Source: Planctomycetota bacterium (GTDB lineage: Bacteria; Planctomycetota; PLA2). Taken from it: a stretch of DNA of 64,000 nucleotides. Below are positions 24,134 to 33,326 of the stretch, one piece after another. How positions within the stretch are numbered: position 1 is the stretch's first letter; every line of letters starts with the position of its first letter. Location of the stretch: the NCBI GenBank assembly GCA_021776735.1, contig JAJFFH010000015.1, positions 1 through 64,000 of the forward strand, written 5' to 3'. Position numbers and translations under genes: made by a program. A model generated the notes under the pieces. The model searched no databases. It was not told the DNA's origin and worked only from the letters and a program-made list of their open reading frames with translations.

Positions 24134-24438
24134 GAACGCTGTCGGGAGGAACAACGCGAAAAGCACCGTTTTCTTAGACGAATTCCGCGGGCTTGGCCAT
24201 TTTGCCCCGGCCCGCCCTCCGGCGACAACCTCCCCTCCAGCGCCGGCAAGAAAGACGGCATGGACTGCGGCCACTCTCCGTGGAACAGGTCGCGCACGCC
24301 CCCGCCGGAGGACACGTGGACGCCGCCCCCGGGAACGTTCAGGGAGGTAGCACGCCGAAGAGCCCCCGAAAAAAAGCAGACGGACGGCGATGTCAACTCG
24401 GACGAGTAGCACGAGCCGCGCGGGCGCTATCAGGAACG
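24134..24438. other. Intergenic gap with iterated motif
   Basis: About 305 bases between the sigma factor start and a small gene. An exact iterated-motif copy lies at 24380-24391, preceded by seven A residues. I see no ORF with protein-like composition. The sigma factor promoter should be here but I cannot assign boxes with confidence. Confidence 0.5.
24380..24391 (+). repeat. Iterated motif copy ACGGACGGCGAT
   Basis: Exact intergenic copy in its fullest context, AAAAAAAGCAG + core + GTC, which sets the extended consensus A-rich/AAGCRN/core/GTC shared with 28156, 29894, 31560 and 36276. Confidence 0.88.
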
Positions 24439-24845: not shown

Positions 24846-25688
24846 ATGTCCAAAACGATTCCGTTCGTGCTCGCCTTGATGGGCGTCGCAGTGTGCGCCG
24901 CACCCGCGTTTGCGGGAGACAAGGAGTGGGCGAAGGGCGTGCCCTACACCACCGACTGGAAGGACGCCATCAGGCAGGCCCACGCGACCGGAAAGATCCT
25001 GCTGATCTACAACGGCTGGGAACGCGAGAAGATATGAGCACCCTGCGATGGACTGAAGGGCGCCGTGCGCGCCCTCGCCGTCGGCAAGGGTGACTACAAG
25101 AAGTACAAGAAGCTCCTGCAGGAGAAATTCATCCTGCTCAACGTCTACTGCCGTTCGGTCAAGGAAGAGCACGACCCGCGCGGCCCCGAGGGCCCTTATC
25201 AGTTCACCGATCGCAGCGTGCCCGTTCTTCTGTTCAAGCGGTGGAACGGCGAAACACTGGTGCAGCAGCTCGGCTTCGCCTCCAGCATCGATCGGGCGAC
25301 ACCGGCACTCGCCCGTTTCGTCGACAAGGCCCTGAAGAAAAACGGCCCGGTCGCGCCGCCCAAAGCGCTCCGTCCGCTACTCAAGAGCATGAAGAAGGCG
25401 GAAGCCAGCCTCGAAAAGCAGCGCATCGGCGCCGCCGTTCGCGAGCTTCAAGAAATCGTCAAGGCCGCGGCCAACAAGAAGAAGTTCTCCGAGCAGCCCG
25501 TGGTCGCTGCCAAGGCTCAGGAGCATCTGGACGCACTGCTCAAGGACGCCCGAAAGAAACTCGAAGAAGCGGACCGCCTAGAAGGCATCGTCAAGAAAAA
25601 GGAATTCAACCGCATCGCGCGCGAGTACGGTGCCCTCGGCGACATCAAGAAGAGGGCCAAGGCGGCCCTGAAGGCGATGAACGAGTAG
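24846..25688 (+). CDS. Candidate selenoprotein, exported thioredoxin-like (Sec64, UAPC)
   Basis: One reading frame of 281 codons interrupted only by TGA at 25035-25037. It has a signal peptide (MSKTIPFVLALMGVAVCAAP AFA), then a thioredoxin-like start (DWKDAIRQAHATGKILLIYN) and EKI-[TGA]-APC-DGLK, so Sec64-Ala-Pro-Cys67 stands where thioredoxins have CxxC. After the TGA the same frame continues for over 200 codons: KKYKKLLQEKFILLNVYC, SVPVLLFKRW (with the conserved cis-Pro), then a coiled, Lys-rich tail. A hairpin 19 bases downstream of the TGA (25057-25075) has a CGUGC loop, fitting a bacterial SECIS. Conventional annotation would split it into a 63-residue fragment and a second ORF at 25065. 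Alternatives: a TGC-to-TGA mutation or a sequencing error. Confidence 0.7.
25057..25075 (+). promoter_or_regulatory. Candidate SECIS hairpin
   Basis: AGGGCGC-CGTGC-GCGCCCT is a 7-bp stem with a 5-base loop whose second base is G. The loop begins 26 bases after the TGA, inside the spacing reported for bacterial SECIS elements. Less typical than the GGU-loop hairpins at 32338 and 33223. Confidence 0.5.
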
Positions 25689-25697
25689 GGCCCGCAG

Positions 25698-26231
25698 CTA
25701 TTCGAGCCGGGCGCCGCCGCCAGTGCGACGTCCGTTGCCGCCGCCGGTGCCGTTGCCGAGCGCGTGGTCGCGAATAAGGCGCAGCTTGGCGCGGGCCTCA
25801 TGCGCGGTACTCAGCTCCGTGTCGTCATGCGTGTTCGCGAGGCAACGGACGAGCGCGCGGGATCGCACCCGATACGCCGCACGGACATCGTCGTTCGAGG
25901 CGTCGGGTGCCAAGTCAAAAAAGGAACACGCCGCGCCGCGGTCGAGCTGGGCGGGCTCGGTGCGGGACAGGACGTCGAGCACCCGTTTGCCTGAGAATCC
26001 GAGATGGGTCTGCGCGGCCCAGTCCGAGCGCATGGGTCGCCCCAACGCGGCGTCGCGCGCCTGCACCAGTTCGCGGAGCTCGGCACGGATCTGCTCTTTC
26101 TCCTCGGCCACGGTCGCGCGCAGCAGGCGCACCTTGAGCGGACGGCAAAGACGCTTGTAGGCGCGCTGTATGTCCTTGGGTGATGCGTCGAGCGGCGCGT
26201 CGAGCCGCTTTACGGCGTGCTCGCGATCCAT
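25698..26231 (-). CDS. J-domain-like protein lacking HPD
   Basis: A 177-residue protein with two segments that look like helices I-II of J domains (LDAPLDASPKDIQRAYKRLC at about 10 and LAPDASNDDVRAAYRVRSRA at about 100). The HPD tripeptide needed to stimulate Hsp70 is absent in both. The C-terminus is Gly/Asn/Arg-rich and probably disordered. Start at 26231; upstream residues to 26270 are unconserved. It converges with the selenoprotein candidate, leaving 9 bp. Function unknown. Confidence 0.55.
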   Translation of the reverse strand: MDREHAVKRLDAPLDASPKDIQRAYKRLCRPLKVRLLRATVAEEKEQIRAELRELVQARDAALGRPMRSDWAAQTHLGFSGKRVLDVLSRTEPAQLDRGAACSFFDLAPDASNDDVRAAYRVRSRALVRCLANTHDDTELSTAHEARAKLRLIRDHALGNGTGGGNGRRTGGGARLE

Positions 26232-26483
26232 GCACCGTTTATACACCAAAAGCCGGGGCGGCGGACCCACGAACGCGACGAACGGTGCCGTTCGGCCCGC
26301 CCAAGAAAAAAGAGCGGGTGGTGTGTCCGATGGCCTCTGCGTTCAAAAAGAGGTGAATGTACGGGGCCCGGATTTTTTTACCAACCGCTCGTGGTTTCCA
26401 TAGATCGGACGTTTCCCCCACCGGCTACAGTCGAAAAACCGGATTGGGCGACAGCAAAAATCGCCAAGGCAATTTTCGTTAGC

Positions 26484-27416
26484 ATGAGCATGACCGTGAA
26501 TCTCGTGCCGCTGTCCGCCGTGCCTACTCGCTACACGGTGTTTGGGGCTGGGTCGGTTGGCACCGTCTTGGCGGGGTTGTTGGCCGACGGCGGTGTCGAT
26601 GTGCGATTGGCCGGACGTGGTGCCGTCTCGGATCTTGTGCTCGAGGGAAACGGCGAAACCGTGCGCACGCGCGTACCCGTTGTGAATGAAACCGAGGGCA
26701 CGATCTTGTTGTGCGTTCACGAAACCGACGTTGCGGAACTCTGCGCGGGTTGGGCCGGACGGACGGTGGTCACACTCTGCAACGGTGTGACCGCGGAGAA
26801 AGCCGCGGCGCAATGGTGCGATGTGATCGGCGGGGTGTGGCGGTTTACGTGCGAACTGCTCGCGCCGGGGCACGCACGTTTCACGCGGCGCGGGCGTGTG
26901 ATCGTGCAACGGACGGCGTTGCCCTTGGCCGACGACCTGCGCCGCGCCGGCCTCGACGTCGGCGAGTCGGACGACATCGGCGCGGACGTCCGGCTCAAGC
27001 TGTGTTTGAATCTCGCCAGCACACCGAACGCACTGATCCGTCCTGCAGATCACGCCACGTCGGCGTTCGGGGAAATCAAGGCGCGCCTGCTCGAGGAAGC
27101 ACGCGACGTACTCGCAGCCGCAGGACTCAGCGTCGACCCGGGTGCCGGCGATCGCACGTTGGACGAGGAGATCGAACTCCACCGACAAACCGGCGGCGGA
27201 AGCCGGTGCCGGATCGGGATGGTACACAACGACACCTGGCGCACGCTATCGCGCTGTCGCAAGCCGAAGGAGCGCTATCACACCGCGGTTGCCCGCTGGG
27301 GCGCCGCACCCCAAAATCGCGCGATGGGAGCACTCCTCGATCGCGCCACAGGCCCGGAGTGCTACACCGCACGCGAGGTTCTAGCGGCGCTGGACGAGGC
27401 GCTCATCCAGCCTTGA
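26484..27416 (+). CDS. Ketopantoate reductase family protein
   Basis: A 310-residue NAD(P)H-dependent reductase of the ApbA/PanE family. The dinucleotide fold starts with TVFGAGSVGTVLAGLLADGG. ILLCVHETDVAEL and VVTLCNGVTAEK match the second half of the Rossmann fold. VRLKLCLNLASTPNALI corresponds to the conserved catalytic-Lys and Asn helix. Start at 26484 (MSMT) or two codons later. Preceded by a 252-bp gap in which I see no gene. It may make pantoate, or act on another 2-keto acid; many paralogs exist. Confidence 0.78.
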   Translation: MSMTVNLVPLSAVPTRYTVFGAGSVGTVLAGLLADGGVDVRLAGRGAVSDLVLEGNGETVRTRVPVVNETEGTILLCVHETDVAELCAGWAGRTVVTLCNGVTAEKAAAQWCDVIGGVWRFTCELLAPGHARFTRRGRVIVQRTALPLADDLRRAGLDVGESDDIGADVRLKLCLNLASTPNALIRPADHATSAFGEIKARLLEEARDVLAAAGLSVDPGAGDRTLDEEIELHRQTGGGSRCRIGMVHNDTWRTLSRCRKPKERYHTAVARWGAAPQNRAMGALLDRATGPECYTAREVLAALDEALIQP

Positions 27417-27436
27417 TTCGTCGCCATGTCGAGCGC

Positions 27437-28018
27437 TCATGACGACATGGGGGTTGCGAAAGTCCACCAGCGACCCCATAGGTGACAATACTCAGTAGGC
27501 GAGCCCAAGAACCTGGCAGTAGGCTCGGCGCCGGTGTGTGAGTAGGCAAGTCCGAACTGGGCGTAGAAGAGGAATCCGGTATCGGTCTGGAACAACTCGG
27601 CATCGCCGGCGACCTCGACGGGCCCCACAAACATCAGCCCCGCGCGGCCACCCTCGGGAAGGGCCTCGTGCGCCATGCGGTGCAACGCGCTGTCGCTCAG
27701 CAAGACGCGAACGACCAACGGCGCCCGAGTCAGCGTTGCCAGAGCCACAAGCACCGCGACAACCGGGGGAACGGCCCATGATGCCGCCTCGCGCGGACCC
27801 ACGGGCGTGCCGCGAAGCCAACGACGCAGCCGGCGGTACGCACAGACCAGCCAGGTCAGGACCAACACCACGAGTCCGCCGAACCAGACAGCAGCGAGCC
27901 AGAGTAGATTCGGGGCAACCGTCGCCACGACTGCCGCGGCCGTCGCTGCCCACGCCAAGGTCAAGCCGTGAAAGAGCGGGTTGGGCGTCTCCGGGGGCCT
28001 CGACGCGCCCGTGGTCAC
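27437..28018 (-). CDS. Membrane protein of unknown function
   Basis: A 193-residue protein with three hydrophobic segments (LAWAATAAAVVATVAPN, LWLAAVWFGGLVVLVLTWLV and WAVPPVVAVLVALATL) followed by a soluble C-terminus ending FLFYAQFGLAYSHTGAEP. A GTG at 28018 overlaps the stop of the cytochrome gene as GTGA and is the preferred start; an ATG at 28036 is possible. The coupling suggests it works with the cytochrome lipoprotein. Not recognised. Confidence 0.6.
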   Translation of the reverse strand: MTTGASRPPETPNPLFHGLTLAWAATAAAVVATVAPNLLWLAAVWFGGLVVLVLTWLVCAYRRLRRWLRGTPVGPREAASWAVPPVVAVLVALATLTRAPLVVRVLLSDSALHRMAHEALPEGGRAGLMFVGPVEVAGDAELFQTDTGFLFYAQFGLAYSHTGAEPTARFLGSPTEYCHLWGRWWTFATPMSS

Positions 28019-28464
28019 TGATACTCCTGGTGACAATCGACGCAGGAGCGCTCCAGCGCGAGCGCTTCGTCAGCCGCTTGGCCATCAATCCGCGCACGGG
28101 CGTAGTCGCGCGCGCGGCGGCGCGCCTCGTCCAGCAACGCGCGCAATCGGCCGATATCGCCGTCCGTTTGCTTTTGTCCGTTCTTGTTCCGGCGCAACAA
28201 GTCCGTTTGACTGGGCCGGGCTCGTTGCAGCAGGTTCTCGATTCGTAACGCCCCTTCCAAGTCCGCCGACGCGGACGCGAGCGGGCGTTCGTAACGTTCC
28301 AGGCGGCGCATGGCCTCTTTCAATTCCAGCGGTTCGTCGCGCAGGCCTAGCGCCGCGCGCTTTTGGCTGAGAAGCTCGTCGGTGTCGGGCGAGTCGTCCG
28401 AGCACGCGGCAAGAAAAACGGCTCCCGCAAGCCGGGCCAAAACGCCGAAGACGAACCCACGCAT
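28015..28464 (-). CDS. Lipoprotein with a single c-type heme motif
   Basis: A 149-residue exported lipoprotein: lipobox FLAAC at about residue 21, then a helical body and a C-terminal CVDCH, the CxxCH heme attachment motif, four residues from the end. This layout (heme at the extreme C-terminus of a helical protein) recalls four-helix cytochrome c-prime-like folds. TDGD at about 103 is a copy of the iterated motif in a KNGQKQTDGDIGRLR helix. The start codon shares the tetramer CATG with the divergent HAD gene. Probably an electron carrier outside the membrane. Confidence 0.7.
   Translation of the reverse strand: MRGFVFGVLARLAGAVFLAACSDDSPDTDELLSQKRAALGLRDEPLELKEAMRRLERYERPLASASADLEGALRIENLLQRARPSQTDLLRRNKNGQKQTDGDIGRLRALLDEARRRARDYARARIDGQAADEALALERSCVDCHQEYQ
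28156..28167 (-). repeat. Iterated motif copy ACGGACGGCGAT
   Basis: Exact sense-strand copy in the cytochrome lipoprotein gene, read as T-D-G-D, with the extended flank AAAAGCAA before the core. Confidence 0.88.
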
Positions 28465-29089
28465 GGACGCGCATTCTACGGTGGTCGTGTTCGACCTCGA
28501 CGACACGCTGATCGACACCCGGGGCATCCTCGTACCCGACGCGCTCCGGCGGGTTGCGGCGGCCGTGGGGACTCCGGTCGAGAGGCTCAACGCCGTGGGC
28601 AAGGCGATCGGCGAGGTGCTTGCGGGTCTCGACGTGACGGATGAGCAGCGGGCCGCGGCGGCAGCGGTCTGGTACGCCCCGGACGTTGCGCCGCTCACGG
28701 CGTTGCCCGGAGCGCGCGAGTTGCTCGATGCGTTGCGCGCACACCCGGACGTGGGGCTGGTGCTTCTGACGCGCGGAGATCCGGCGCGTCAGCAGCAAAA
28801 ACTCGATGCGTGCGGGCTGCGCGGTTGCTTCGACGAGGTCCGCATCCGGCCCATCGAAGGGCCCGGGACCAAACGCGACGACCTCGCCGCGATCCTCGCC
28901 AAGTTCAATGTGCCGCCCGGCCGCTGCCTCGTGGTCGGCGACGACGAGGCCGACGAGCTCGCACACGCACGCGCGCTCGGCTGCGTGGCGATCAAGGTGC
29001 CGCAGGCGACCTGGGCCGACGTGGAGCGGACGATCGCGACTTTGCGCGGCGCAAATCCCGAATCTCGCCGAAAACCGGAATCCTCGTAA
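28463..29089 (+). CDS. HAD-superfamily hydrolase
   Basis: A 208-residue HAD hydrolase. Motif I is VVFDLDDTL (nucleophile and acid Asp), motif II LLTRG, motif III region GPGTKRDD and motif IV VVGDDEADELAHA. A small alpha cap fits phosphoglycolate-phosphatase or beta-phosphoglucomutase-like enzymes. The ATG at 28463 overlaps head-on with the divergent cytochrome start, leaving no separate ribosome site; the true start could be a GTG slightly downstream. Substrate unknown. Confidence 0.8.
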   Translation: MDAHSTVVVFDLDDTLIDTRGILVPDALRRVAAAVGTPVERLNAVGKAIGEVLAGLDVTDEQRAAAAAVWYAPDVAPLTALPGARELLDALRAHPDVGLVLLTRGDPARQQQKLDACGLRGCFDEVRIRPIEGPGTKRDDLAAILAKFNVPPGRCLVVGDDEADELAHARALGCVAIKVPQATWADVERTIATLRGANPESRRKPESS

Positions 29090-29119
29090 CATCGCGCCGG
29101 TCTCGCGCAAGAGGCTGTC

Positions 29120-31510
29120 GTGACGGGAACCGAAGAACAGCGTCTCTGGCAGCGATGGGCCCAGCGCCGCGATCGTGGCGCTTTCGAAGCCCTCGTGGCC
29201 CACCTCCAGGTCTTTGCGTTCGACTTCGCGCGCCGGGTCACCGGCCACGACGCCGACGCCGCCGATCTCGCGCAGGAAGCACTGGTCGAGCTGTCGGGCA
29301 CCGACCCGCAAACGCCGGCCGCCGTCGGCCTCAAGGCGTTCCTGGGTCGCCACATCCACCTGGGCGCGAAGATGCTGCGTCGCGCCGCGCTCACGCGCAC
29401 GCGCCACGAACACGCAGCGGCCGAGGCCCGGGAGCGCGCCGCCCAAAGCGCCCGGGAGCCGCAAGGACAAGAAACCGAGGAAGCGCTCGCGCTCCTCGAC
29501 GCCGACCAGCGCCGCGCCGTCGAGCTGCGTTTCTTGCACGGCCTGTCGTACCGCGAAATCGGCCATGTGCTCGGCATCAGCGAGCTCAACGCCCGCGTCC
29601 GCGTCCACCGCGCCCTCAAACGCCTGCGCGAACGCCTCGGCCCGCGCACCAAGGCCTCGCTCGCCGCCCTGGCGCTGTTCTCGCCCCCGTCACGGTTCGT
29701 TTCCCACACCGTACGCACGGCAGTTGCCGTGGGAGGAGTGCTCGCCGTGACTTCCATTCTCAAGAAAACCCTCGTCGTCGCAATCCTCCTGGCCGCCACC
29801 GCCACCGGCGCCTATGTGTGGCGGACCGGCAGCCGCGATAGCGGAGCGCAACGGGCGGACGTTCCGGAGCGAAGGGCATCCGCAAAAAGGCAAACGGACG
29901 GCGATGTCTTGAAGCCCTCCACGGACGACGACGCGCAGGCTCCGGCTGCGGCGCCCACAGCGCCGGCACAAGCAAGAACCTGGAGCGGCCACTTGAAGGG
30001 CCGCGTGGTGCTGGACGACGGCACGCCCTTCGCCCACCGCACACTCGCGCTCTGGGGCTACGAACAGGTCACCGCCAAGACCGATGCGGACGGACGTTTC
30101 GAACTGGCCGGCGTCTATCCCGGCGAACGCACGCTGTACATCGCGGAACCCGGTTTCGACTTCGCGATCTTTTCAACGGAGGTGGGCGCCCACGACGTGT
30201 CCGACATCGCTGCTCGTGTTGAGCGCGGCCAAACCCTGCGAGGAACGATCCTGTCGGGACGCGACGTTGTTTCCGGCGCGACACTCACGTTGCGGCGCCA
30301 AGGCGCACGCGGGTCCGGCGCGGCCGTACAGGCGGATTTCGCGTTCCTCAAGACGGACGCGCAGGGCCACTTCGCTGTCCCGCTCCTGCCGTCCGGTTCC
30401 TACACCCTCGCCATCACCGCCGATGGATTCGAGCCTGCGGCCGTGAGGCTGCAAGTCACGTCGGTCCCTGCCCCCGCCCCCCTCACCCTCCAACTCAAGC
30501 GTGCCGTCCGGCTCACGTTTCGGTTCGACAATCTGCCGCCGGAGTGGCGACGAACCGCTGTGTACGTCGCGATTCACAACCTTGACGGCCGCGAAATCGA
30601 AACGCAGGCGGAAGGCCGGCTAGACGAGTCCAACTCCCTCGGTTTCGATGCGCCGCCGCCGGGGCGCTACCACTTCGAGACCCTGCCCGGCGGCAAGGGT
30701 GTGCTTCCGCGGATGCGACAGACCGTCACCATCACGAGAGCGGCCGGACAGACCGTGGTCTTCCGCTTGCCCGATGGCGCTCGCGTGACAGGCACGCTCC
30801 GCGACGTCGATGGAGCAGTGGTCGCGCGCGCGCGGCTGTTCGTGGAGGGCGCCGATCTGTACGCAACGACCGACACACGGGGCCGCTTTGTCTTTCCTCG
30901 CGTACCCACCGGGCAGCGCGTTTTCTCGCTGGCTGCCGGACAGCGGCGCCTGAGACGCGCTGAAATCCCGACTGGCGGCGCCCTGCAGCTCGACCTGAGA
31001 TTCCCCGGCACCGCGGAGATCCGGGGACGCGTGGACGCGAAGGGCCCGAACTACGCGAAATCCGTGGCGCTCTTCGACCTGTCGGACGCGGAGAAGCCCA
31101 TGGCCAGACACGATCTCCGAGAGGACGGCTCGTTCGTACTGCCCCATCTCGCACCGGGCACGTACCGACTCGTCGCCTTCGCCTACGAGGCACCGGCGTT
31201 GGAACAACGGGTCACGGTCGATCGCGGCAGTGTCGATGTCGGTACGTTGCTGGTGGAGCCCTACGTGCGGATCCCACTTCGAGTCGCTGCACCCACCGCG
31301 GTGAAACTCGCAGGGAAACACTACGCGACCTGGAGCGGCGGCCTCTGCAGGTACGAGTTGGACGGGCACGGACACGGCCACCTGTGGGGCCTGCCACTCG
31401 GCACGCACATCGTCCACTTCACGCTCACGGGCACGAAGCAGACCACGACCGAGGTCCGCGTCGAGACGCAGGACAGCCCCACCGTGCGCGTAACCCTGGA
31501 ATTGAAGTAG
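29120..31510 (+). CDS. ECF sigma factor fused to membrane span and carboxypeptidase-regulatory-like domains
   Basis: A 796-residue protein with a GTG start. Residues 1-175 form an ECF-type sigma factor (region 2 DADAADLAQEALVELSG; region 4 ELRFLHGLSYREIGHVLGIS). A single span at about 214-235 (LKKTLVVAILLAATATGAYV) is followed by a Gln/Pro/Ala-rich linker containing a TDGD copy of the iterated motif. About 290-796 hold serial beta-sandwich units of the CarboxypepD_reg type (GRVVLDDGTPFAHRTLALWG, TDADGRFELAGVYPGERTL, TLRDVDGAVVARARLFVEG). Such sigma-membrane-sensor chains are characteristic of Planctomycetes. The sigma part would have to be released or act at the membrane in response to an outer ligand, which is inferred. 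Confidence 0.85.
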   Translation: MTGTEEQRLWQRWAQRRDRGAFEALVAHLQVFAFDFARRVTGHDADAADLAQEALVELSGTDPQTPAAVGLKAFLGRHIHLGAKMLRRAALTRTRHEHAAAEARERAAQSAREPQGQETEEALALLDADQRRAVELRFLHGLSYREIGHVLGISELNARVRVHRALKRLRERLGPRTKASLAALALFSPPSRFVSHTVRTAVAVGGVLAVTSILKKTLVVAILLAATATGAYVWRTGSRDSGAQRADVPERRASAKRQTDGDVLKPSTDDDAQAPAAAPTAPAQARTWSGHLKGRVVLDDGTPFAHRTLALWGYEQVTAKTDADGRFELAGVYPGERTLYIAEPGFDFAIFSTEVGAHDVSDIAARVERGQTLRGTILSGRDVVSGATLTLRRQGARGSGAAVQADFAFLKTDAQGHFAVPLLPSGSYTLAITADGFEPAAVRLQVTSVPAPAPLTLQLKRAVRLTFRFDNLPPEWRRTAVYVAIHNLDGREIETQAEGRLDESNSLGFDAPPPGRYHFETLPGGKGVLPRMRQTVTITRAAGQTVVFRLPDGARVTGTLRDVDGAVVARARLFVEGADLYATTDTRGRFVFPRVPTGQRVFSLAAGQRRLRRAEIPTGGALQLDLRFPGTAEIRGRVDAKGPNYAKSVALFDLSDAEKPMARHDLREDGSFVLPHLAPGTYRLVAFAYEAPALEQRVTVDRGSVDVGTLLVEPYVRIPLRVAAPTAVKLAGKHYATWSGGLCRYELDGHGHGHLWGLPLGTHIVHFTLTGTKQTTTEVRVETQDSPTVRVTLELK
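29894..29905 (+). repeat. Iterated motif copy ACGGACGGCGAT
   Basis: Exact sense-strand copy in the linker of the sigma fusion (KRQTDGDVLKPS), with extended flank AAAAAGGCAA and trailing GTCTT. Confidence 0.88.
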
Positions 31511-31533
31511 GCGCTTCCGTCCGGCAAAAGAAA

Positions 31534-31580
31534 ACGGCGACTGCCCCTCTTCGGGAGCAGTCGCCGTCCGTTTGCTTTTT
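31534..31580. terminator. Bidirectional terminator built around an iterated-motif copy
   Basis: ACGGCGACTGC (31534-31544) pairs with GCAGTCGCCGT (31557-31567). On the plus strand the stem is followed by CCGTTTGCTTTTTT and on the minus strand by TTCTTTTG. It sits between the convergent sigma-fusion and thioredoxin-like genes. One arm is an 11/12 match to the iterated motif (31560-31571). Confidence 0.75.
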
Positions 31581-31593
31581 TGGCGTTGCGCGT

Positions 31594-32448
31594 CTACGCC
31601 TTGGCGGGCGTCGGCTTCAGCTCGTAGAGAGCTGCTTCGCGTGTGTTGGCGGCGTCCTCAAGATCGCCGATCTTCTTGTCGAGGGCGTCGCGCTGCTTGT
31701 TCAGCTTCGCCCGCTTGCTCGCGCTCTTGGTGTCCGCAATGGTCTGCTCGAGCTCGTTGAGCTTGGCGCGGAGCTTGTCGGTCTTGGCGCGCTCCTTTTG
31801 AATCGACTTTTGCGCCGAGGCAACGCGCGACAGTTTGTTTTGGTAATCGAGCTTGAGCGTCGCGCGCATCGCCGCGACGATCTTGCCGGCGTTGAACTTC
31901 TTTGTGGTCCGCACCATCTTGGTGGCCTCGTAGTTCGGACGCAGGAACACGAGGGTCGGACGCGTGGACGCGTACGACTTCAGGACCCGGTCCGTGCGCG
32001 CCGTCTCGGCGTCGATGCGCAGGCAATCGAAAAAGCGCGCGCCCATCGCGACCTTGTCGTCGGCGAACGCTGCGTCTTCTTCGACCATGAAGCGATAGTC
32101 CGGCGCGTCGTCATCGTCCGCAGTCTCCGGATAGATGAAGACCAGCATCGGCTTCCCGGCCCGGCCGGCCGTGGCGGCTTCCTGCTCGGTCATGCCCGTC
32201 ACGGTGTCGGGAGCGAGTCGCGCGACATCGCGCCAGCCGATCCGGAATTGCGCTTGGCTCGAGACCCCGCCGGAGCGCGTGCGCGCCTTGGCCGAGGCGG
32301 AGGGATTGGCTGTCGGAGTCGGAGTGGGAGCGTTACCGCGTCCGCCACCGGCGGACGCACTGGATCCCCGTCATCATCCGTAGACGTCGGGTTGGAATCC
32401 GGCGAACGCGAGCGCGGCCGCCAAAAGGGCCAGAAGAGAAATGCGCAT
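31594..32448 (-). CDS. Candidate selenoprotein, exported thioredoxin-like (Sec25-Sec26)
   Basis: The frame starts at 32448 with a signal peptide (MRISLLALLAAALAFAG), continues FQPDVYG, then two in-frame TGA codons (32371-32376), then a Ser/Gly/Thr/Pro linker, QFRIGWRDVARLAPDTV and a thioredoxin-like domain (GRAGKPMLVFIYPE, AFADDKVAMGARFFDCLRID, RPTLVFLRP) and a coiled coil. 285 codons in all including the stop. The paralog next door aligns from the WRD segment onward, so coding extends upstream of the first ATG normally found (32202). A perfect 9-bp hairpin with a GGU loop follows the TGAs by 12 bases. Insertion of two adjacent selenocysteines is the inference. The thioredoxin part itself lacks CxxC. 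Alternative: two adjacent stops with an internally started cytosolic protein. Confidence 0.65.
32338..32358 (-). promoter_or_regulatory. Candidate SECIS hairpin with GGU loop
   Basis: In the mRNA GCGUCCGCC-GGU-GGCGGACGC is a perfect 9-bp stem with a triloop GGU. The loop begins 24 and 21 bases after the two UGA codons. A G at the start of the apical loop and such spacing are hallmarks of bacterial SECIS elements. Confidence 0.65.
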
Positions 32449-32505
32449 GATGACAAGCCTAGCCTTATTTGGCCGGCGCGGGGACCGGGATTGGCCGGAT
32501 TGCGT

Positions 32506-32542
32506 AAAAAAAGGGCGCCTATCGGGATTTCCGATAGACGCC
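32506..32542 (-). terminator. Intrinsic terminator between the two selenoprotein candidates
   Basis: On the minus strand GGCGTCTATCGG-AAATC-CCGATAGGCGCC (one mismatch) is followed by seven T residues. It lies 20 bases beyond the stop of the 32562-33326 gene, so the two paralogs are probably separate transcripts. Confidence 0.85.
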
Positions 32543-32561
32543 ATCGAGGCTAAAAAGGGGG

Positions 32562-33326
32562 TCAGGCTCGAGGCTTCAGGTCGAAAACCGAGTTTTCGCG
32601 CTTCAGCAGCGCCGCATCGGCCTTGGCGAGCTTGTCGTTCAGCGTTTCACGCTTCTTCTCGAGGCTGACCTTCCGGGCGCCACGGGTGTCCGTGAGCTTT
32701 TTGTCGAGCCGGGCCAGAACATCCCGGTCACGCTGCAGCTTGGCACGCGCCTTGTCGATGCCCTTCAGGCTCTTCACGGCGGTGGCCACGCAGTTTTCGT
32801 AGTCCAGGCGCATGGTCTTGCACATGGCCCCAAAGATCTTGCCGCCGCTCGGAGTCCCACGCAGGGTCGCGGCGATCTCGAAGTTCGGTCGTACAAACAC
32901 GAGGCACGGCGCGGAACGCGCCATTTTGGCGAGAATCCGGTCCTTCTTTGCTTCCGCGGCGGTCATCCGCAGACAGTCAAAGAAGCGGGCGCCGATTGCC
33001 ACCTTGTCCGTCGCGAAGGCACGGTCGGACTCGATGGCCCCCCGCGGATCCTCGCTATCCTTGTCGCTGTCACGGTAGACGTAGACCAACATCGGCCGGT
33101 CGGCCCGGCTGGCCTTGGCGGCTTCCGCCTCCGTCATGCCGGTCACGACATTGCGTGCCAGCTCGGAGGCATCGCGCCACTGAACCGTGAATTCGGGTCG
33201 GGAAGCAGCTCCCCGGGCTCGTCCGCGGGCACCGCCCGCGGCACCGCCACATCAGCCAGCTTCGAGGGCCGGCATCCATACTGCGGCCACGAGCACCGCA
33301 GCGAAGATTCCGATGGTCTTTCGCAT
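32562..33326 (-). CDS. Candidate selenoprotein, exported thioredoxin-like (Sec25-Cys26)
   Basis: The frame starts at 33326: signal peptide MRKTIGIFAAVLVAAVW, MPALEAG, then TGA (33252-33254) and TGT, giving Sec25-Cys26, a Gly/Arg/Ala linker, PEFTVQWRDASELARNVV and the thioredoxin-like domain (ADRPMLVYVYRDSD, AFATDKVAIGARFFDCLRM, APCLVFVRP) with a coiled-coil tail. 255 codons including the stop. The TGA is at the same codon as the first TGA of the paralog at 31594-32448, where codon 26 is also TGA rather than TGT. An 8-bp hairpin with a GGU loop starts 10 bases after the TGA. Usual annotation would begin at 33146 and lose the signal peptide. Confidence 0.7.
33223..33241 (-). promoter_or_regulatory. 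Candidate SECIS hairpin with GGU loop
   Basis: In the mRNA CCGCGGGC-GGU-GCCCGCGG is a perfect 8-bp stem with a GGU triloop, the loop starting 19 bases after the UGA. The same loop occurs in the paralog's hairpin although the stem sequence differs, which suggests selection on structure. Confidence 0.65.

Follow-up and report, generated by a model that had tools for sequence, protein, structure and literature searches.

Exported proteins with apparent N-terminal selenocysteine in a planctomycete genome and across the Planctomycetota

Three exported proteins encoded within the 64,000 nt stretch of planctomycete DNA analysed here (the window; GenBank assembly GCA_021776735.1, contig JAJFFH010000015.1) appear to contain selenocysteine (Sec, U), and two of them belong to a large, apparently unlisted family spread through the Planctomycetota, the mature members of which seem to begin with Sec, sometimes with two in a row. 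Each gene, designated P0001, P0002 and P0003, has an in-frame TGA, tandem in the case of P0002, lying between a signal peptide and a conserved domain and followed by a hairpin with a GU-containing loop (Table 1). The preliminary description of these features, which reported in-frame TGA codons in three signal peptide-bearing genes, a Sec/Cys exchange between the two paralogues and a hairpin after each TGA, is confirmed. Its interpretation is only partly supported: the central inference that these are selenoproteins, rather than signs of an altered genetic code, has strong support from the Sec machinery, the conserved TGA, the Sec/Cys exchanges and the hairpins, but the proposal of a single exported thioredoxin-like family is half right, as the genes fall into two families. 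No relationship between P0001 and P0002/P0003 could be detected (hhalign probability 0.3%), and that the latter belong to a phylum-wide family in which Sec is nearly invariant could not have been apparent from the window.

Table 1. Positions of the candidate selenoprotein genes and their features within the window
Feature	Position	Strand	Description
P0001	24846..25688	+	Exported Thioredoxin_7-type selenoprotein gene, 280 aa with TGA read as Sec
P0001 signal peptide	24846..24914	+	Approximate; judged by eye from the sequence
P0001 TGA	25035..25037	+	Codon 64, Sec in IUAPC (UxxC)
P0001 hairpin	25057..25075	+	SECIS-like, 7-bp stem, loop CGUGC
P0002	31594..32448	-	Exported family member with tandem Sec-Sec
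P0002 signal peptide	32380..32448	-	Approximate; judged by eye
P0002 TGATGA	32371..32376	-	Codons 25 (32374-32376) and 26 (32371-32373), Sec-Sec in GUURG
P0002 hairpin	32337..32359	-	SECIS-like, 10-bp stem, loop GGU
P0003	32562..33326	-	Exported family member with Sec-Cys; ordinary TGA stop at 32562-32564
P0003 signal peptide	33258..33326	-	Approximate; judged by eye
P0003 TGA	33252..33254	-	Codon 25, followed by TGT; Sec in GUCGG
P0003 hairpin	33223..33241	-	SECIS-like, 8-bp stem, loop GGU; not the MFE fold of the 53-nt stretch

The absence of Sec machinery from the genome had been named beforehand as grounds for rejecting this reading, but the machinery is present. Searches identified selA (516 bits), selB (339 bits) and selD (362 bits), the last of which itself contains a TGA (reading GGUAAK), adjacent to one another on a single contig. 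A tRNA-Sec was also found, scoring 65.7 bits and exceeding the Rfam cut-off, in which ARAGORN reads the anticodon TCA. A change in the genetic code can be rejected: of 25 gene calls between 18 and 46 kb of the window, 11 end in TGA, and as one of these is the P0001 Sec codon itself, TGA is the stop of 10 of the remaining 24, as well as that of P0003.

The family containing P0002 and P0003 was found in 16 of 17 genomes of the order and in 70 of 392 genomes of the phylum. Of its 117 places, four (L147, L166, L194 and L195; L numbers denote individual places) lack a readable N-terminus because they lie at contig edges. Of the remaining 113, 99, in 65 genomes, carry an in-frame TGA just after the signal peptide, 15 of these as tandem UU; one has Cys and 13 have neither, implying that the domain can exist without the Sec-bearing segment. 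The L104 entry was classified by reading L200, and L083, L192, L193 and L200 were added by eye, the signal peptide being incomplete in L083 and L200; across the family, signal peptides were judged by a hydrophobicity script rather than a dedicated predictor. Counts of hairpins, lipoboxes and Cys patterns, as well as the tree, use the 95 places classified by script, not all 99. Of the 117 places, 58 were found through a match that starts at profile position 28 or later and holds no stop, that is, without the motif, and 45 of the 54 of these that are readable have the TGA. The arrangement of Sec and Cys requires 24 changes on a 95-row quick tree built from the residues starting six after the first Sec. 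Matches to selA, read by eye from the list of hits, are present in 62 of the 65 genomes with Sec forms, against 213 of the other 327. In one genome, G040, two family genes lie just upstream of selA. Three genomes with TGA forms (G004, G016 and G180) have no selA match and a fourth, G064, has only a weak one; these assemblies are 92%, 77%, 77% and 90% complete, respectively.

Under a strict rule requiring GU in the loop, a hairpin follows 66 of 95 family TGAs, compared with a mean of 12.3 and a maximum of 21 in shuffled sequences; the signal also exceeds that in a downstream window. When the hairpin is required to lie at +15 to +30, it is found in 62 of 95 cases, against 2 of 71 ordinary TGA stops and 7 of 172 coding windows (at any place, 66 of 95, 6 of 71 and 15 of 172). 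Nevertheless, 29 of 95 TGAs lack such a hairpin, an Rfam search showed no SECIS and, when stretches of 53-56 nt are folded freely, the P0003 hairpin is not the minimum-energy structure (z -0.84), although the other two appear in the MFE fold (z -1.95 and -1.84). In 25 distinct AS[LMVS]A-type windows, the Ser codon in the loop is AGT in 25 of 25, against 8 of 304 Ser codons in the bodies of 28 members from the order, and 139 of 175 cells pair in register, compared with at most 82 when the register is slid. However, in the same test the double changes (22) and pair types (16) in register are not clearly above those in slid registers (up to 17 and 16), the three innermost pairs never vary, and the windows were chosen by a peptide motif that itself favours the stem.

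P0001 is a Thioredoxin_7-type protein with Sec at the first position of the CxxC motif. This assignment rests on relationship, as P0001 alone scores below the Pfam cut-off (13.4 against 27 bits) and has no NCBIfam match over a cut-off, whereas its relatives L187 (E 6.3e-19) and L188 (E 1.6e-12) exceed the Pfam threshold and align at the motif; L187 also matches TsoB (NF045694) and Trx7/PDZ (NF041199) below their cut-offs. P0001 resembles the Thioredoxin_7 / DsbD-C-like UxxC selenoproteins in being exported and in having Cys forms among its relatives: of 12 places, 8 have TGA and the other 4 have WCGWC at the aligned CxxC, although these Cys forms match weakly (E about 5e-5) and the alignment puts a gap before their motif. 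For P0002 and P0003, only weak matches to thioredoxin-like proteins were obtained: Thioredoxin_7 in 2 of 27 members (best E 0.0059), AGR3/AGR2 in the PDB (E 0.09-0.8) and, for the distant member L169, E 4.6e-5, below Pfam's cut-off. AlphaFold models were too weak to use (P0003, pLDDT 57 and pTM 0.37; P0001, pLDDT 41 and pTM 0.28), and Foldseek found nothing significant for P0003.

The most likely explanation, with a probability of roughly 0.85, is that all three genes encode exported selenoproteins made by the standard bacterial route, in which SelB and Sec-tRNA-Sec read an in-frame UGA because a short hairpin with a GU-containing loop lies just downstream. In this view P0001 is a thioredoxin-like UxxC oxidoreductase, while in the second family the signal peptide would be cleaved just before the Sec, usually before a G or Q that precedes it, such that the mature protein would start with Sec-Cys, Cys-Sec, Sec-Sec, Sec-x-Sec or Sec-x(n)-Cys in a flexible Gly/Ser/Pro/Ala/Arg-rich tail, followed by a putative thioredoxin-like domain, for which the evidence is weak, and a C-terminal helical coiled coil. 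The tail may act as a mobile extracytoplasmic redox arm, the vicinal selenenylsulfide or diselenide of which would shuttle electrons to or from the domain's own Cys (a CxxC pattern is present in 19 of 95 members, and an FxC pattern in 50 of 95) or to a partner. The conserved TGA, the Sec machinery and the hairpins are directly demonstrated by these analyses, whereas the insertion of Sec itself, the site of cleavage, the redox chemistry and any function are inferred from sequence alone, in the absence of transcript, protein or selenium data.

A tentative alternative is that the tail binds a soft metal or metalloid (Hg, Cu or As) in the periplasm, with the domain and coiled coil as scaffold. The tail is of low complexity and the spacing of its Sec and Cys residues varies freely (UU, UC, CU, UxU, U..C), which suits ligands better than a fixed active site. 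In G040, the two family genes next to selA have genes for YbjQ_1, a putative heavy-metal-binding protein, on their other side (one was scanned; the other clusters with it), and metal-related selenoproteins with CU or UxxU motifs (HgcA, SaoL, MbdU and a putative mercuric reductase) are listed in Table 1 of PMC13188914. However, the metal-related neighbour is seen in that genome only, and the CxxC and FxC patterns fit a redox partner. It is less likely that the family is structural, with the tails cross-linking exported coiled-coil proteins to one another or to the cell envelope through diselenide or selenenylsulfide bonds. The long C-terminal helical part (helices 161-213 and 217-247 are the best-scored part of the low-confidence model) and the tandem Sec-Sec forms are compatible with this, but no envelope genes were recognised among the 20 neighbouring proteins scanned, and five Sec forms have one Sec and no nearby Cys. 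That the Sec or adjacent Cys is the lipidated first residue of a lipoprotein is very unlikely: although it closely follows the hydrophobic signal sequence, only 3 of 95 members have a loose lipobox before the first Sec and 1 of 95 a strict one, the preceding residue is Gln in 26 of 95, and position -3 is Glu or Asp in 30 of 95. Finally, although standard gene finding would treat the TGAs as stops in decayed genes or after short leaders, and an open reading frame listing starts P0002 and P0003 downstream at GTG, this can be all but dismissed given the in-frame signal peptides upstream, the similar pN/pS upstream (0.45) and downstream (0.46) of the TGA over eight pairs (which reuse some sequences and include one, L032/L034, misregistered by an insertion), the conserved TGA and the placement of the hairpins.

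Neither NCBIfam nor the 2026 inventory of selenoproteins (PMC13188914, Table 1) matched the second family. P0001-P0003 and ten other proteins, nine of them members of this family, had no NCBIfam match over a curated cut-off; the inventory table was read by eye, without sequence comparison, and no UU motif was seen in it. Selenoproteins with CU or UC motifs listed there (KCU-star, SaoC, HgcA, MbdU and CopZ-like forms) share the vicinal Sec and Cys, whereas here the Sec sits next to the signal peptide. Mammalian thioredoxin reductase has a flexible Gly-Cys-Sec-Gly arm, and some members of the family (L025, L030 and L041) literally read GCUG, but that arm is C-terminal rather than N-terminal and the resemblance is one of analogy only, with no homology claimed. 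Glycine reductase selenoprotein A was once thought to lack Cys homologues, and such homologues are now reported (PMC12013277); in the family described here, 1 of 113 relatives is a Cys form.

It is about as likely as not that these proteins represent a phylum-wide exported class in which Sec is the near-obligatory first reactive residue of the mature chain, almost without Cys counterparts, and in eight planctomycete families is encoded as a tandem UGA-UGA giving a vicinal Sec-Sec (diselenide) arm. This would be a new kind of protein selenium chemistry and a clear exception to the rule that selenoproteins have abundant Cys homologues; the family runs against the published statement that all known selenoproteins seem to have Cys-containing homologues (PMC12013277), on which the usual Sec/Cys-pair searches rely. 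If the reading is correct, 99 selenoprotein genes in 65 of the 392 genomes sampled would be truncated or missed by gene finders that read TGA as stop, an expectation based on the UGA lying right after the signal peptide rather than on their public annotation. Tandem UGA decoding, apparently with one hairpin serving two UGAs, makes the limits of SelB-dependent recoding testable, and a protein that keeps Sec while its Cys comes and goes bears directly on why Sec is retained in evolution.

A codon-score scan of the window for further TGA-interrupted genes ranked the TGA of P0001 first but missed the two N-terminal cases. Of its nine other hits, five lie opposite called genes (24442, 27539, 29692, 30175 and 41639), one is the stop of a called gene (20789) and three are at 1135, 3515 and 61454. 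No partner gene conserved across the family was found in 20 gene neighbourhoods. One cluster, comprising a LysR regulator, homocysteine S-methyltransferase/MTHFR and a sigma-54 activator, lies beside the third own-genome copy (in G000), and is found in similar order in genome G013 and partly in G015.

The positions of the in-frame TGA codons are as the preliminary description gave them, and its observation of three interrupted genes holds. Codon 64 of P0001, within IUAPC, and codon 25 of P0003, where TGT follows, are each TGA, while P0002 has TGATGA at codons 25-26; each is followed by a hairpin with a GU in the loop. P0003 also ends in TGA, so the same codon has both uses within one gene. Of 25 gene calls at 18-46 kb, 11 end in TGA, one of which is the P0001 Sec codon itself.

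Coordinates of the genes, repeats and neighbouring loci discussed (window positions unless a genome and contig are named)
Feature	Location	Strand	Remarks
P0001	24846-25688	+	TGA at codon 64
P0002	31594-32448	-	TGATGA at codons 25-26
P0003	32562-33326	-	TGA at codon 25, then TGT
Dispersed 17-mer, exact copy	28157-28173
Dispersed 17-mer, exact copy	31561-31577
Dispersed 17-mer, other copies	near 24372, 29886, 36280
Terminator-like inverted repeat	31524-31580		includes one copy of the 17-mer
ORF with apparent ECF sigma-factor-like N-terminus	29120-31510		convergent with P0002
Third own-genome family member (L069, L108)	G000:C54:69240-69965		GUCPRS
Region with two family genes and selA (L112)	G040:C6:655500-667500

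The absence of the Sec machinery had been named beforehand as a result that would refute the reading, and it was not observed. The window's own genome (5.97 Mb, 71 contigs, 93% complete) has selA, selB and selD side by side on contig 20, and a tRNA-Sec on contig 50 that scores 65.7 bits, over the Rfam cut-off, and is confirmed by ARAGORN with anticodon TCA. The selD gene itself holds a TGA (reading GGUAAK), with a GU-loop hairpin after it, and serves as a positive control for Sec decoding.

The interpretation in the preliminary description, which grouped all three genes in one exported thioredoxin-like selenoprotein family, is only partly supported, because comparison of the P0001 and P0003 alignment profiles finds no homology (hhalign probability 0.3%). 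P0001 has matches in 3 of 17 genomes of the order and 12 of 392 of the phylum. Eight of the 12 places carry TGA (UAPC, UFGC or WUGYC), whereas four, all weak matches at E about 5e-5, carry WCGWC at the aligned position, with a gap before it. Two relatives, L187 and L188, are Thioredoxin_7 proteins over Pfam's cut-off (E 6.3e-19 and 1.6e-12), while P0001 alone scores below it. P0001 is thus best read as a divergent UxxC thioredoxin-like selenoprotein with a Sec/Cys exchange.

The family of P0002 and P0003 is more widespread. With P0003 as query, 16 of 17 genomes of the order match, and 31 of 40 matched stretches hold a TGA; with a 27-row profile, 70 of 392 genomes match across the phylum, taken as Planctomycetota, as for the near relatives JAJFFF010000016.1, JAKLKT010000164.1 and WYBS01000202.1. 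The DNA upstream of the match was read for the 115 places found with this profile and for two more from a separate search, of which four run off contig ends. Of the 113 readable, 99 have an in-frame TGA within a few residues of the signal peptide: UC 41, U..C 20, UU 15, CU 14, U only 5 and U..U 4. These Sec forms lie in 65 genomes, with 41 of the 99 in the own class and 58 outside, and tandem UU occurs in eight families of the phylum (handles f1, f2, f9, f26, f31, f37, f45 and f56). One place (L120) has Cys (CKGC), and thirteen have neither residue. Eight of these thirteen resemble one another, mostly with AQGM-type N-termini, and the two that were scanned (L118 on G000:C43, in the own genome, and L119 on G172:C28) are long (751-785 aa) HEAT/VWA proteins carrying a domain matched by the family profile, without Sec or Cys after the signal peptide. 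In 58 of the 117 places the match starts at profile position 28 or later and holds no stop, meaning that they were found without the motif; of the 54 of these that are readable, 45 have the TGA, so the count is not an artefact of a profile that contains the motif.

The arrangement of Sec and Cys varies within this family. On a quick tree of 95 rows, built from the residues starting six after the first Sec, the six arrangements need 24 changes, against a minimum possible of 5 and a shuffled mean of 49.7, and well-supported branches alone force at least six changes of the UU label. Sec and Cys have thus traded places repeatedly while at least one Sec was kept.

Hairpins resembling SECIS elements were sought as a stem of at least 5 bp with a loop of 3-7 nt and a GU starting at its first or second base. 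One was found in the 50 nt after the last TGA in 66 of 95 cases (shuffle mean 12.3, maximum 21 over 100 sets), whereas a control window at +65..+115 gave 6 of 95. With the G at +15..+30 the count is 62 of 95, against 2 of 71 ordinary TGA stops and 7 of 172 coding windows; at any place, the figures are 66 of 95, 6 of 71 and 15 of 172. An earlier set of 50 TGAs, including three of the P0001 family, gave 36 of 50 against 5.6 expected. Stem sequences differ widely between members. In 25 distinct windows of the AS[LMVS]A type the Ser codon in the loop is AGT in 25 of 25, although AGT is 8 of 304 Ser codons in the bodies of 28 order members, and 139 of 175 stem cells pair in register against at most 82 when slid. 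However, double changes and pair types in these windows are not clearly above slid registers (22 against up to 17, and 16 against up to 16), and the peptide motif used to choose them favours the stem. Furthermore, no hairpin was found in 29 of 95 cases, that of P0003 is not the MFE fold, and Rfam finds no SECIS. In P0002 and the family place L047, one hairpin seems to serve two UGAs. Apart from the points just listed against it, the hairpin signal fits the bSECIS model given in PMC13188914.

The distribution of selA between genomes is in agreement with this reading. It matches in 62 of the 65 Sec-form genomes, one of them weakly (G064), against 213 of the other 327 (Fisher p 8e-8, overstated because genomes are related), although three genomes (G004, G016 and G180) have TGA forms without a selA match. 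In G040, a genome outside the class, two family genes lie directly upstream of selA on the same strand, with two YbjQ_1 (putative heavy-metal-binding) genes divergently on the other side, one identified by scanning and the other clustering with it. No other partner is conserved across the family in the 20 regions read. P0003-type genes lie beside mutS in the own genome, G000, and beside a homologue of it in G013. The third family member of the own genome lies upstream of a LysR regulator, a homocysteine S-methyltransferase/MTHFR fusion and a sigma-54 activator, an order that is similar in G013 and partly so in G015.

The residue before the first Sec is mostly G (55 of 95), Q (26) or C (13), and a lipobox is absent (strict form in 1 of 95). 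Cleavage before the G or Q would leave Sec at about residue 2 of the mature protein. The next 20 residues are 71% G/P/S/A/T/R, against 38% for the rest, so the tail is probably flexible. The domain has a thioredoxin-like CxxC pattern in 19 of 95 members and an FxC pattern in 50 of 95, but fold evidence for this family is weak. It is proposed that the tail acts as a mobile extracytoplasmic redox arm, with soft-metal binding as the main alternative. Whereas the conserved TGA, the Sec machinery and the hairpins are read directly from the sequences, Sec insertion itself, the cleavage site and the redox role are inferred.

No family in NCBIfam release 20 matches the three window proteins, or ten other proteins of which nine are members of this family, over a cut-off. 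Table 1 of PMC13188914 (2026), said there to cover 119 families or subfamilies, was compared by eye in the parts consulted, and these hold no entry that can be equated with the family and no UU motif; families cited to Haft and Tolstoy 2025 are listed in PMC13188914. Searches of the literature for Planctomycetota selenoproteins, vicinal or tandem Sec and Sec near signal peptides gave no listing that describes it, although prior description cannot be excluded, as most subscription papers fell outside the collection searched. Selenoproteins in other Planctomycetes are reported in PMC4807772, and PMC12013277 states that all known selenoproteins now seem to have Cys homologues.

The sequence around these genes also contains a dispersed 17-mer (AAGCAAACGGACGGCGA, up to 2 mismatches), which occurs 985 times in this genome (482 + 503; reversed control 1 + 1) but 0-3 times in each of 16 relatives of the order. 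By position, the copies near 28160 and 29886 lie inside called genes. It looks like a recently amplified interspersed repeat. One copy is included in a terminator-like inverted repeat, seen by eye, between P0002 and the gene convergent with it, for which Rfam gives only a sub-threshold ctRNA match. Judging from its translation, that convergent ORF seems to fuse an ECF sigma-factor-like N-terminus to a transmembrane segment and repeated carboxypeptidase-regulatory-like domains.
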